The position numbers were made by a program, and so were the translations under genes. A model generated the notes under the pieces. The model made no database searches. It was not told where the DNA came from and saw nothing but the letters and a program-made list of their open reading frames with translations. Below, piece by piece: positions 40,136 to 57,596 of a stretch of 64,000 bases of DNA. The DNA comes from an uncultured Cytophagales bacterium (GTDB lineage: Bacteria > Bacteroidota > Bacteroidia > Cytophagales > Thermonemataceae), in NCBI GenBank assembly GCA_938002655.1, contig CALLAC010000017.1, positions 1-64,000 on the forward strand. The letters run 5' to 3'. Position 1 is the stretch's first letter. Each line of letters starts with the position of its first letter.

Positions 40136-41956
40136 TTATTTGAGCTGATCGCCACGCAAGATGCGAAATCTTTTGCGAGCTTCTGCAACGTATCTACTTC
40201 CTGGGAATTTGATTAAATGTTCTTGATACAATTCTTTAGCTTTTTCTTTATTTTGTAAGAGCTCTTCATAAGTTTTAGCGAGAGCAAAATGTGCATCATC
40301 AGCCAAAATATCAAAGGCATAATCTTTCAGAATAAGTTCGTACATTTCTATGGCTTTCTGGGGCTTTCCCATACGAGTAAAAATATTCGCTTTTGCCCAA
40401 TAAATATCATCGGTAAGGCTATGATTAGGAAAATTTTTAAGCATTGCTTCCAAAGCTTTGAGAGCCTCATCAAGTTTATTCTGAAAAATCAGAAGGTCAA
40501 TACGAGCAAACTCACGCATAGCTGTTTCGGTGCTATCCATGCCTGTATTATCCTGAATAAATACGCTCATATCAATGGCATCGTTGGAAATTTCTCGAGA
40601 AGTAGCATTTTTCAGTATATCTAGATGGTTCTGAGCGGTTTCAAATTCGCCTTTGTAATAACTAAGTTTAGCATTTTTGAGTTTGGCTTCGTGTCCAATA
40701 GGGGAATCTTTTTGCTCACGTTCAGCTTGGTAGTAGAATAAAGCCGCTTCGCCAAATTCACCTTTTAGCACATAAATATCTCCCAAGGTTATTTTGCATT
40801 GAGCCACCAATTTGCTATTATACTTGGCTTCGCTAATAGCATCTTGTAATAGTTCAATAGCTTTTTCTTTTTCATCAAGGAAAAAAGCATATAAATGTGC
40901 CATATCTTTCAGAGCCTCTACGGTTTTAGCCTTTCCTTGCGAATTGATAAGTTCTTGATAATCTTGAATAACTGCCTTTACTTTTTCCTTATCAATTGGA
41001 AAAGTATTCTTAATAACCTCCTCACGAGCCTTTATCAAGTATCTACGAGCAGGAATAAAATAAAGAGCATCGTTAGGATACTGCTCTACAAAATAGCTCA
41101 AAATTTTTTCGGTAGCAGGGTAGTCTTTATTTTCAAAAGCTATGCGACCTATTTCAAAGAGTTGAGAGCCTTGCTTTTTGAAGCGTTTATCAATAGCTTT
41201 TGCCTGCACAAAAGCCTTCAAGAAGTTTTTTTGTTGCATATAAAGCCACAAGAGTAGCTCATTGGCGGCTCGGTGATTAGGCTCTTCTTGTACTTTGGTA
41301 AGCAAGGTTTCTTCAACAAAGTTCAACTCCTCTTCGGTTCGGAACTCATCTTGCAAAGTTCCCTTTACATATTCGCCATAATCTTCGCTTTTATTGTATA
41401 GCTTAATAGCTTCTTGAAGCAATTCTTTTTTCTTGCCAAGTTTGGCATACACTTCGGTGAGTTGTAAAGCATACTTATCGGAACTATTGTCGTACTTGCG
41501 AGCTTCTAAAAACAGCCTTTCTGCCCATTCGTATTTATCATATTTTTCGAGGGCTTCATAGGCTGTTTTTGCTCTTTCTCTATCTTTTTTACCTATTTCA
41601 ATCAGGGTCAAATATTCTTTTTCTGCTTCTTTCATTTTGCCTTGCATTTCTAAAATAATCGCAAAATCAGCCTTATAAAACACATTTTCAGGTTCTTGTT
41701 TGATTTGCTTTCGCAAAAACTCTTCTGCGGTTTTGTAGTCTTTCAAATTGATGAGTGTAAGCAAATAGTTCTGATGTATGCCTCGCCAATTGTAAGAATG
41801 GCGAGCAAGTTTTTCGTAAATATCTTTAGCTTTTTCGTACTTGCCTTGTACGAAATACTCTTCGGCAAGTTGAAAATCTTGTGCCGTCACAGAAGTATAC
41901 AGCAAGAAAATGAAAAATACAAATTGTAGTATTTTTCCAAGACGATTTGTTTTCAT
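40136..41956 (-). CDS. Exported tetratricopeptide-repeat protein next to the origin
   Basis: 606 aa from ATG 41956, which starts a clean signal peptide (LGKILQFVFFIFLLYTSVTA); an upstream ATG at 42019 would run into the origin. About a dozen TPR-like units follow, for example EEYFVQGKYEKAKDIYEKLA, YPATEKILSYFVEQYPNDA, and near the end PQKAIEMYELILKDYAFDI and AKELYQEHLIKFPGSRYVAE. The last units resemble YbgF/BamD-type repeats, suggesting a periplasmic interaction scaffold. It leads the operon with the small membrane protein and mutS2. Function unknown. Confidence 0.85.
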   Translation of the reverse strand: MKTNRLGKILQFVFFIFLLYTSVTAQDFQLAEEYFVQGKYEKAKDIYEKLARHSYNWRGIHQNYLLTLINLKDYKTAEEFLRKQIKQEPENVFYKADFAIILEMQGKMKEAEKEYLTLIEIGKKDRERAKTAYEALEKYDKYEWAERLFLEARKYDNSSDKYALQLTEVYAKLGKKKELLQEAIKLYNKSEDYGEYVKGTLQDEFRTEEELNFVEETLLTKVQEEPNHRAANELLLWLYMQQKNFLKAFVQAKAIDKRFKKQGSQLFEIGRIAFENKDYPATEKILSYFVEQYPNDALYFIPARRYLIKAREEVIKNTFPIDKEKVKAVIQDYQELINSQGKAKTVEALKDMAHLYAFFLDEKEKAIELLQDAISEAKYNSKLVAQCKITLGDIYVLKGEFGEAALFYYQAEREQKDSPIGHEAKLKNAKLSYYKGEFETAQNHLDILKNATSREISNDAIDMSVFIQDNTGMDSTETAMREFARIDLLIFQNKLDEALKALEAMLKNFPNHSLTDDIYWAKANIFTRMGKPQKAIEMYELILKDYAFDILADDAHFALAKTYEELLQNKEKAKELYQEHLIKFPGSRYVAEARKRFRILRGDQLK

Positions 41957-42010
41957 AAAAACCGATTTTTTTTGAAAATAAGAAATTTTTTTGACTTTCG
42001 CAAGCGAAAA

Positions 42011-42545
42011 TTTTTCCACGACTTTTTTTTAATGTAATAATAATATCTTTTTTTATTTTTTTATTATTGTTATTATTAGGGGCGGTGGAAAACCACTTTT
42101 ATATGAAAAAATATTGTTACAAAATAAAAGATATAGATGGTATAAATTTTTTTCAACATCTGTAAAATACTCAAAATTAAATTTTTACAAAAAGTTTTTC
42201 ACAAAGTTTTTTGAAAAATGTAGAAAAAAATATGGATAACTTTTTCCACATTTTGCCTTAAAACTCTGTGGATAAGCTGTGGAAACCTGTGGAAAAGTGC
42301 CTAATTTTTGTGGATAAGTACCCTCACTTCTGTGGAAAATCACTAAAAAAATGATGTAAGTTTTTATGTAAAATTTAATTATGATGTGGAAAAAAAGTGG
42401 TTTTTCCACAGCTTTCCACAGGGTAAAAAGTGGAAAAATTTTACATCAAAAATTATGCCAAAAATGAATTTCCACAAATTTTTCCACAGGTTTTCCACAA
42501 AAAACCACTACTTTTCCACAATTTTTTTACTACAACGTGGATAAC
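42011..42545. other. oriC: Putative chromosomal replication origin (oriC)
   Basis: Two perfect DnaA boxes TGTGGATAA lie at 42267-42275 and 42309-42317. Single-mismatch copies are at 42231, 42242, 42288, 42331, 42385, 42402, 42480, 42491, 42512 and 42536, with weaker ones at 42278, 42412, 42429 and 42468. They occur in both orientations within about 320 bp, far above expectation. To the left is a strongly AT-rich stretch (42021-42078). No convincing gene occupies the 736 bp between 41957 and 42692; open frames there are compositional. dnaA is not adjacent, which is common in this phylum. A parS site 15 kb away supports the call. Confidence 0.85.
42012..42092 (-). other. AT-rich unwinding region with DnaA-trio-like track (putative basal unwinding system)
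   Basis: Read on the minus strand: DnaA-box-like TTTTCCACC (42092-42084), GC-rich GCCCC (42083-42079), then TAA TAA TAA CAA TAA TAA (42078-42061), then almost pure A/T to about 42021, and a further box-like TTTTCCACG on the plus strand at 42012-42020. The order DnaA box, GC cluster, TA(A/G) trinucleotides is the arrangement described for bacterial basal unwinding systems. Sequence evidence only. Confidence 0.6.
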
Positions 42546-42661
42546 GAATTTCGCAAACTACTTGCTAAAAAAGTTTCTTTTCAAAAAATTAAAATTGTAT
42601 TTTTCTTATATTCTAATAACAATTTTTAGCCTGTTTCGTTTTAAAAAGTCGATGTTTTTAC

Positions 42662-42669
42662 TAAATTTG
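42662..42669 (+). promoter_or_regulatory. -7 element upstream of the origin-adjacent gene
   Basis: TAAATTTG (TAnnTTTG) 24 nt before the ATG at 42693. No clear -33 element is seen at the usual distance. Confidence 0.45.
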
Positions 42670-42692
42670 GAGCAAGAAAACTTTTGTCATTT

Positions 42693-43373
42693 ATGAGAAA
42701 GCTCATCTTTATTTTTGCTTTATCTTCTCTTTCATTTTATTTGAATGCACAACGACTACTTTTAGCAGATGTATTAGATCCTCAGGGAGCCAATCCAGCT
42801 CTCCAACAAGGGGGAACTTTTAATGTAGGCATGGGCAGTCCTTTCGTAGTAGACTGGACAGAAGGGTACGTTTTTTATGGAAATCAAAAAGAAGTCTATA
42901 AAATCCGTTACAACGCTTTCACTGACCAAATTCACATACTGAAAGATGGCAAGGAAATTGTGTTGCCACGAGGGCAGGTAGAAAGGTTTCATATTCTTTA
43001 TCAGGATAAAGAATACAAATTTATTTTTCTGACGAACCTACCCAAAATTTCTTATGGCTACGTTCAAGTTATTTATGAAAAAGATGTAAAAGTATATTAC
43101 AGGCATCATCGTAAACCTCGCCAATCTGTAGAAACCGATAGCTATACCAACGACTTGAGAGCAGAAGTTTTAGAAAAAGATGATAGTTTCGTCCTGATAC
43201 TTCCCAATGGTAGGGTCTATTTTACACAAGGGAAACGAAAAGAAGTTTTAGGTATTTTTTCGGATAAGAAAAAGGACTTGGAAGAATTTATCAAGAAAGA
43301 AAGAATAAACACCGAAAAACTCAACGGCTTGATGCAAGTAGTACTAAAATACGAAGAACTGATAAAGTCGTAG
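42693..43373 (+). CDS. Exported protein of unknown function
   Basis: 226 aa from ATG 42693. A signal peptide (LIFIFALSSLSFYLNA) ends in a typical cleavage site. The mature part is beta-rich with repeated short strands (YVFYGNQKEVYKIRYNAFTD, FHILYQDKEYKFIFLT, YVQVIYEKDVKVYYRHHRKP) and a charged helical tail. I do not recognise a named domain. The style resembles small secreted Bacteroidota proteins with an N-terminal 'filled-in structure of the surface' pattern (VYKIRYNAFTDQIHILKDGK). It lies immediately right of the origin and converges on the next gene, 2 bp away. Confidence 0.75.
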   Translation: MRKLIFIFALSSLSFYLNAQRLLLADVLDPQGANPALQQGGTFNVGMGSPFVVDWTEGYVFYGNQKEVYKIRYNAFTDQIHILKDGKEIVLPRGQVERFHILYQDKEYKFIFLTNLPKISYGYVQVIYEKDVKVYYRHHRKPRQSVETDSYTNDLRAEVLEKDDSFVLILPNGRVYFTQGKRKEVLGIFSDKKKDLEEFIKKERINTEKLNGLMQVVLKYEELIKS

Positions 43374-55672: not shown

Positions 55673-57535
55673 TCATTTTCCCATGTACACCATCAAGATA
55701 GAAATATCGGCAGGCGAAACACCACTGATGCGTGAGGCTTGTCCGAGTGTTTCGGGGCGAATTTTTTTGAGTTTTTCTCGTCCTTCTGCTGAAAGAGCTT
55801 TTACGAGATCGTAGTTGAAATCCTTGCGTATTTTGTAATTTTCAAGTTCTTTCATTTTTTGGGCGTTTTCTTGCTCTTTTATCAAGTAATCTTCGTATTT
55901 GATTTGAATTTCGGCTTGCTCTAATTCTTTTTCATCGTATTTGCTCAAATAATTGCCCAAATCTTTATACATTCTGCCGAGTTCTTGTAAGGAGATTTGT
56001 GGCCTTTTAAGCAAATTGTAAAAAGAGGTTTTTTCACGAATAGGAGAGGTTCCTATTGTCTCTAGTATACCGTTGATGTCTTCGGGTTGTACTTTTTTCT
56101 GCTTGAGGTCATTGAGCAGATGAGCTACGGCTTCTTCTTTCTTTTTCAAGCGTTGCAAACGCTCCTCAGAGGCAAGTCCGATTTTATAACCCAACTTAGT
56201 AAGTCTGCTGTCTGCATTATCCTGACGCAATAGCAAGCGATGCTCGGCACGTGAAGTAAACATGCGATAGGGCTCGTCAGTACCTTTGTTGATGAGATCA
56301 TCTATGAGTACACCGATATAAGCTTCGTGGCGTTGGAGAATAAAAGGTTCTTGTTCTTTGATTTTCAGATGAGCATTGATGCCTGCCATCAATCCTTGGC
56401 AAGCGGCTTCTTCGTAGCCTGTTGTACCATTAATTTGCCCTGCAAAGTACAGGTTTTCAATCAATTTGGTTTCAAGTGTAAGTTTGAGTTGGGTAGGGGG
56501 GAAGTAGTCGTATTCAATAGCATAGCCTGGACGAAACATTTTCACATTTTCTAGTCCGGGAATTTTACGAATAGCTTTATACTGCACGTCTTCGGGTAAA
56601 GACGTCGAGAAGCCATTTACGTAGACTTCGATTGTTTTCCATCCTTCGGGTTCAATAAAAATTTGGTGGCGTTCTTTATCGGAAAAACGATTGATTTTAT
56701 CTTCTACAGAGGGGCAGTATCGCGGTCCTACGCCTTTGATACGCCCTGTGAACATGGGCGATTTATCAAAGCCTGTTCGTAGAATATCGTGAACTGCTGG
56801 ATTGGTGTAAGTAATCCAACAACTGAGTTGCTTTTCAAGTAAAGGCGTATCTAAGAAAGAAAATCGTTCGGGTTTTTCGTCGCCGGGTTGTTCTTCCATG
56901 AGTTGGTAATTGATAGTTCTGCCGTCAAGACGTGGGGGAGTACCTGTTTTCATTCTACCTGCTTCAAAACCCAGTTCTACGAGTTGTTCGGTGATGCCTG
57001 TGGCGGCTTTTTCGCCTGTTCTACCGCCTCCAAAGCGTTTTTCACCAATATGTATGATGCCATTCAGGAAAGTTCCGCTTGTTAGAATAACAGCTTTGCT
57101 ACGAATTTCTATTCCCATACTTGTTTTTACACCTATGGCTCTTTTGTCTTTTACGAGAATTTCTGTAACCATATCTTGCCAAAAATCGAGGTTGGGAATA
57201 TTTTCTAATGCCAAACGCCATTCTTCGGCAAAACGCATTCTATCGTTTTGGCTACGAGGGCTCCACATTGCAGGACCCTTGGAGCGGTTGAGCATACGAA
57301 ACTGAATAGCAGTTTTATCAGTAATAATTCCTGAAAGCCCTCCAAGTGCATCTATTTCTCTGACAATTTGCCCTTTGGCAACTCCTCCCATAGCAGGATT
57401 GCAAGACATCTGCCCAATTACCTGCATATTCATTGTTATTAGAAGCACTTTTGAACCCATTGTAGCGGCGGCGGCGGCGGCTTCGTTACCTGCGTGCCCA
57501 GCTCCTACCACTATTACATCATATTCAGGAAACAT
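55673..57535 (-). CDS. mnmG: tRNA uridine-5-carboxymethylaminomethyl modification enzyme MnmG (GidA)
   Basis: 620 aa from ATG 57535 (MFPEYDVIVVGAGHAGNEAA); a start at 57589 lies beyond the promoter. The FAD-binding motif is VVGAGHAGNEAA (8-19). SCNPAMGGVAKGQIVREIDA, GTFLNGIIHIG, MKTGTPPRLDGRT, YCPSVEDKI and the C-terminal SRAEHRLLLRQDNAD are standard. With MnmE it modifies wobble U34. The leader contains a parS site. It lies 169 bp downstream of the sigma-factor gene on the same strand. Confidence 0.96.
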   Translation of the reverse strand: MFPEYDVIVVGAGHAGNEAAAAAATMGSKVLLITMNMQVIGQMSCNPAMGGVAKGQIVREIDALGGLSGIITDKTAIQFRMLNRSKGPAMWSPRSQNDRMRFAEEWRLALENIPNLDFWQDMVTEILVKDKRAIGVKTSMGIEIRSKAVILTSGTFLNGIIHIGEKRFGGGRTGEKAATGITEQLVELGFEAGRMKTGTPPRLDGRTINYQLMEEQPGDEKPERFSFLDTPLLEKQLSCWITYTNPAVHDILRTGFDKSPMFTGRIKGVGPRYCPSVEDKINRFSDKERHQIFIEPEGWKTIEVYVNGFSTSLPEDVQYKAIRKIPGLENVKMFRPGYAIEYDYFPPTQLKLTLETKLIENLYFAGQINGTTGYEEAACQGLMAGINAHLKIKEQEPFILQRHEAYIGVLIDDLINKGTDEPYRMFTSRAEHRLLLRQDNADSRLTKLGYKIGLASEERLQRLKKKEEAVAHLLNDLKQKKVQPEDINGILETIGTSPIREKTSFYNLLKRPQISLQELGRMYKDLGNYLSKYDEKELEQAEIQIKYEDYLIKEQENAQKMKELENYKIRKDFNYDLVKALSAEGREKLKKIRPETLGQASRISGVSPADISILMVYMGK

Positions 57536-57568
57536 TGTGTAAAACTTTTGGAATACAACAAAAAAGTT

Positions 57569-57584
57569 GGTTTCACGTGAAACA
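57569..57584. promoter_or_regulatory. parS: parS-like centromere site
   Basis: GGTTTCACGTGAAACA matches the widely conserved ParB-binding consensus TGTTTCACGTGAAACA at 15 of 16 positions, with the 14-bp palindromic core GTTTCACGTGAAAC (57570-57583) perfect. It lies in the leader between the mnmG -7 element and its ATG. It is about 15 kb from the putative origin, where parS sites normally cluster. Confidence 0.88.
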
Positions 57585-57588
57585 CACA

Positions 57589-57596
57589 CAAAGCTA
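57589..57596 (-). promoter_or_regulatory. -7 element for mnmG
   Basis: Minus-strand TAGCTTTG (TAnnTTTG). The predicted transcription start falls in or next to the parS palindrome. The -33 region is not well conserved. Confidence 0.4.

Follow-up and report, generated by a model that had tools for sequence, protein, structure and literature searches.

The window analysed here, a stretch of 64,000 nucleotides, comprises positions 1-64,000 of contig C17 of a draft genome of Raineya, a genus of the Cytophagales in the Bacteroidota (G000; 2.64 Mb in 44 contigs). It contains a gene encoding a TPR protein with a signal-peptide-like N-terminus (40136..41956, minus strand), which is a conserved flank of the putative oriC across the Cytophagales, and an ORF of unknown function (42693..43373, plus strand; 229 aa if the start is the TTG at 42684), whose matches among the relatives checked are confined to the closest Raineya. 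The two are separated by a gap of 736 bp (41957-42692), bounded by the start codon of the TPR gene (41954-41956) and by an ATG at about 42693; the first-pass annotation had described this gene-free space and its two flanks correctly. There is also the mnmG/gidA gene (55673..57589, minus strand), named by protein sequence and tblastn orthology, which lies about 13 kb from the DnaA-box cluster described below and is oriC-proximal across the order. In other phyla, mnmG is a classical oriC neighbour. An adjacent dnaA gene is common, not required, at origins, and here dnaA is located on a separate contig (C33), away from the site as had been noticed before. The related proposal that the origin would not be found by synteny is valid for dnaA, but not for mnmG/gidA or for the TPR gene, which is an order-wide synteny marker. 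In another genome of the same genus (G002), dnaA is placed at 2.05 Mb (C1:2047075-2048478) and the origin cluster at 0.26 Mb, i.e., dnaA is close to the predicted terminus, on nearly the opposite side of the chromosome from the cluster.

The gap harbors 12 DnaA boxes with at most one mismatch from TTATCCACA, all of them within 314 bp (main array, 42231..42544), with weaker boxes interleaved. Two are perfect TTATCCACA boxes (42267 and 42309, both on the minus strand), and the ten one-mismatch boxes comprise eight TTTTCCACA/TGTGGAAAA together with TTATCCATA (42231) and TTATCCACG (42536), so that the counts and coordinates given by the first-pass annotation proved exact. When the 740-bp region holding the gap was shuffled with a first-order Markov model, the mean was 0.245 boxes and the maximum 4 in 2000 trials. 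Outside the two 500-bp bins that the cluster occupies, no bin of the window contains more than 2 boxes. The motif TTWTCCACA occurs 121 times in the genome, and 10 of these occurrences fall in 280 bp of the cluster, the second-densest site having 4 among the matches listed (contigs to C18). Such a smaller group (4 TTWTCCACA in 200 bp, G000:C9:82219-82420) is found within a CDS that appears NlpC/P60-like from its sequence; it is possibly a titration site or a product of chance, and a similar box pair exists in Raineya orbicola (C10:20307). Three TTTTCCACA boxes in 123 bp (G000:C3:80117-80239), within a CDS resembling an acyl-CoA synthetase (MenE-like, named from sequence), are probably a coincidence of coding.

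An AT-rich element adjoins the boxes at 42021..42083, between two facing boxes, and is the predicted unwinding element according to the box and trio layout. The AT-rich stretch reported earlier is thus real, but its trinucleotide repeats on both strands (42034-42079) had been overlooked. A BUS unwinding module consists of a DnaA box, a spacer no longer than 16 bp, and three or more trinucleotides with A in the middle, GAT being the commonest and the nearest to the box (PMC8287927). The minus-strand box nearest to the TPR gene (TTTTCCACC, 42084..42092; TTTTCCACA in R. orbicola and G003) is followed by a 4-bp GC-rich spacer, GGGC (42080..42083), and by a DnaA-trio array (42062..42079, plus strand) that reads, 3'-5', GAT TAT TAT and then TGT TAT TAT; in minus-strand order, TTTTCCACC (42092-42084) precedes GCCC and a TAA-rich repeat. 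Of the 21 box flanks scored, this one ranks first (shuffle P=0.005). The equivalent region of R. orbicola, contig C7 of G001 (NZ_NKXO01000007.1), contains TTTTCCACA, GCCC, and GAT TAT CAT TAT TGT TAT, and the array of G003 is formed by GAT followed by five TAT. When every box flank was scored, the TPR-proximal box in minus orientation had the best-scoring flank in 9/10 genomes. Within single genomes, the shuffle P for the module was <=0.02 in six, and G002, G005, G007, and G046 gave no significant value; the same position of the module across several lineages is stronger evidence than these single-genome tests, although the four Raineya genomes are non-independent.

A second, convergent trio-like array (42034..42045, minus strand) is present on the other side of the AT-rich core. 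The plus strand reads GTA ATA ATA ATA here (P=0.005-0.007 in shuffles), which would put the trios on the minus strand and make this the strand bound. A box on the plus strand, TTTTCCACG (42012..42020; TTTTCCACA in R. orbicola), faces this array. Compared with shuffled sequence, the left-side repeats stand out in G004, G007, and all four genomes of Raineya (P reaching about 0.03), are borderline in G046, and show no excess in G006 and G052; the left box can be made out clearly in G000, G001, and G003 only. These data are only suggestive of a second unwinding module. That two facing box-trio modules, one per strand, flank one AT-rich core as a convergent double BUS is a tentative and rather doubtful proposal; if true, each strand would be entered by a DnaA filament, the two coming from opposite sides. 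No paper linking DnaA-trios with Bacteroid- taxa was found in the literature searched. An inverted repeat, TTTCGC-AA-GCGAAA (41996-42009), is placed beside the left box, identical in R. orbicola and with one half retained in G003.

A lack of conservation in relatives had been named beforehand as an observation that would speak against an origin at this site. In fact, 7/7 same-family relatives have one dense cluster at the corresponding position, immediately upstream of the TPR gene, with 9-22 TTWTCCACA per 500 bp, and the more distant G052 and G046 have 11 and 7 there. Searching by pattern for pairs of adjacent boxes gave matches in every same-family genome. The TPR gene is the constant neighbour of the cluster, at identities from 95% down to 32%, and the cluster is retained beside it though the genes on the far side differ; MutS2, PBP1a, and the unknown ORFs are kept only in the closest relatives. 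MutS2 was rejected as a synteny marker, being far from the cluster in G002 (0.50 Mb, with the TPR gene and the cluster at 0.26 Mb), G006, and G007. For 33 of the best 80 TPR loci in the genome collection, the densest box window lies <=1.5 kb upstream of this gene, and TPR-cluster loci occur on long chromosomal contigs of up to 4.1 and 9.0 Mb. No DnaA-box cluster was found upstream of the TPR orthologs of Pontibacter and several other genera, which may mean that their origins use other boxes or lie elsewhere.

The linkage to parS points to the same place. Only four sites with at most one mismatch from TGTTNCACGTGNAACA exist in the genome, all on C17: two with one mismatch (57569 and 118331) and two perfect ones (71779 and 71817), which are the only perfect parS of this genome and lie outside the window. 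The site inside the window (GGTTTCACGTGAAACA, 57569..57584) is in the mnmG leader. Proximity of parS to oriC, which is usual, not universal, is thus observed. Perfect parS lie 5-6 kb from the cluster in G002, G006, and G007. Considering the 39 listed genomes in which the TPR gene shares a contig with a perfect parS, several of these contigs being multi-megabase (G001, G003, and a few others have them on different contigs and were left out), a perfect parS is found 3.8-13.8 kb upstream of the TPR start in 37, with a median parS-TPR distance of 5.2 kb in this order-wide sample. The two exceptions are G002, with parS 5.0 kb away on the other side, and the present genome, at 29.8 kb. The parS site abuts the mnmG start in the loci checked, and in most of them mnmG separates it from the TPR gene. 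The parB gene of this genome is on C8, not beside the perfect parS.

Strand composition was analyzed as third-position GC skew (GC3) corrected for gene strand, seeking a single change-point without supplying the cluster position; the relatives' chromosomes were sampled in 20-kb stretches, about every 100 kb in the 4.1-Mb contig of G002. The change-point was located at 919.0-921.3 kb in G006 (cluster at 919.9-920.3 kb; permutation p=0.003), at 31.1-37.3 kb in G046 (cluster at 36.2 kb; p<0.001), and, with borderline support, at 62.1-64.4 kb in G007 (cluster at 63.0-63.3 kb; p=0.059). G002 shows two arms, -0.047/+0.058 across the cluster, with a broad switch at 0.2-0.6 Mb and back near 2.5 Mb; its change-point optimum is at 0.62 Mb versus 0.26 Mb for the cluster. 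The GC3 skew of G011 is flat, with no clear switch, and contig C7 of G001 has no clear pattern. A skew minimum at the site, which the first-pass annotation had named as a supporting observation, is only partly borne out: the three relatives with a sharp change-point (G006, G007, and G046) switch at the cluster, but on the contig of this genome the gene-wise change-point is not significant (p=0.32) and its optimum is elsewhere. The raw cumulative GC skew of the window has the minimum of the 20-64 kb range at 42807; this minimum is local, the whole-contig minimum being at the contig start, which is equally low.

Since the cluster is above chance and conserved, contains a BUS module, coincides with skew switches in relatives, and is linked to parS and mnmG, the gap 41957-42692 is, on sequence grounds, almost certainly the oriC of the Raineya chromosome, and an origin of the ordinary kind, as had been proposed at first. 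DnaA-ATP would bind the dense array (42231-42544), and DnaA would be loaded from the outlying box (42084-42092), across the 4-bp GC-rich spacer, onto the trios (42062-42079). DnaA would then open the AT-rich core (42021-42083), leading to helicase loading, and ParB on the nearby parS would organise and segregate the new origins.

The only competitor that retains some slight probability is that the true origin is elsewhere, with the array serving either to titrate or reactivate DnaA, as datA/DARS-like loci do, or to place the promoter of the TPR gene under DnaA control. Dense DnaA boxes occur also at loci of these types, and the array is directly upstream of a gene; but the skew switches of relatives coincide with the cluster, parS and mnmG are linked to it, the BUS module is present, and no second dense cluster appeared among the genome matches listed, so that we consider this explanation very unlikely. 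The origin of an integrated plasmid or another secondary replicon, which a gap without a dnaA neighbour could suggest and which had also been named as a finding that would count against a chromosomal origin, has a negligible probability: it is contradicted by the conservation at a single location next to this TPR gene throughout the family and the order, on contigs of up to 4.1 and 9.0 Mb. Moreover, the segment is not plasmid-like because core genes surround it on a 225-kb contig carrying MutS2, PBP1a, RecA, PyrD, and MnmG, and the scan of the flanking proteins revealed no gene for plasmid replication. A chance build-up of TTTTCCACA-like words, conceivable in a T-run-rich region of about 75% A+T, can practically be dismissed, being refuted by the shuffles (<=4 boxes versus 12), by the matching clusters in every family member, and by the higher identity between this genome and G003 in the boxes defined in R. 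orbicola than in the inter-box DNA (111/135 versus 242/335, p=0.025).

The excess of TTTTCCACA had been taken as a possible indication of the DnaA preference of this lineage. The DnaA of this genome has its best solved-structure match with 8btg_A (386 bits), a DnaA that we take to be that of Bacillus subtilis, and keeps an ordinary recognition motif, GGRDHSTVIHA. The boxes of G006 and G007 at the corresponding origin are nearly all TTATCCACA, and an altered preference was rejected because close relatives mostly have TTATCCACA at the same origin; the annotation's suggestion is thus unsupported. Drift among near-equivalent boxes within Raineya appears to be the better explanation of the excess. 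A separate segment (G000:C3:141971-142288) matches the DnaA model weakly (28 bits), in its C-terminal DNA-binding part, and has two in-frame TGA; it could be a protein with a DnaA C-domain or a remnant.

The literature searched on Cytophagales and oriC yielded no described origin for the group, and thus a firm oriC call is provided here in a draft genome of such a group. As far as this literature goes, the order-wide landmark parS-mnmG-oriC-TPR gene is new, as is the two-sided unwinding layout if confirmed. The landmark allows origins to be located with neither dnaA nor a closed chromosome, and its conservation makes the possible two-sided layout directly testable.

This origin resembles those of the E. 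coli type in that oriC is apart from dnaA and has mnmG/gidA in its neighbourhood, but the immediate neighbour here is the TPR gene, with mnmG 13 kb off. As with the parS centromeres near other chromosome origins, canonical TGTTYCACGTGRAACA sites are close to it, but here the perfect ones are about 30 kb off, versus the order median of 5.2 kb, and parB is not beside them. The closest likeness in detail is with the BUS of B. subtilis (PMC6669920, PMC8287927), which shares the DnaA box, the GC-rich spacer of about 4 bp, and the DnaA-trios with GAT adjacent to the box; here, in contrast, dnaA is not adjacent, one TGT breaks the trios, and the opposite strand may carry a second, convergent array, which would make a double layout of what has been described as a single BUS in B. 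subtilis.
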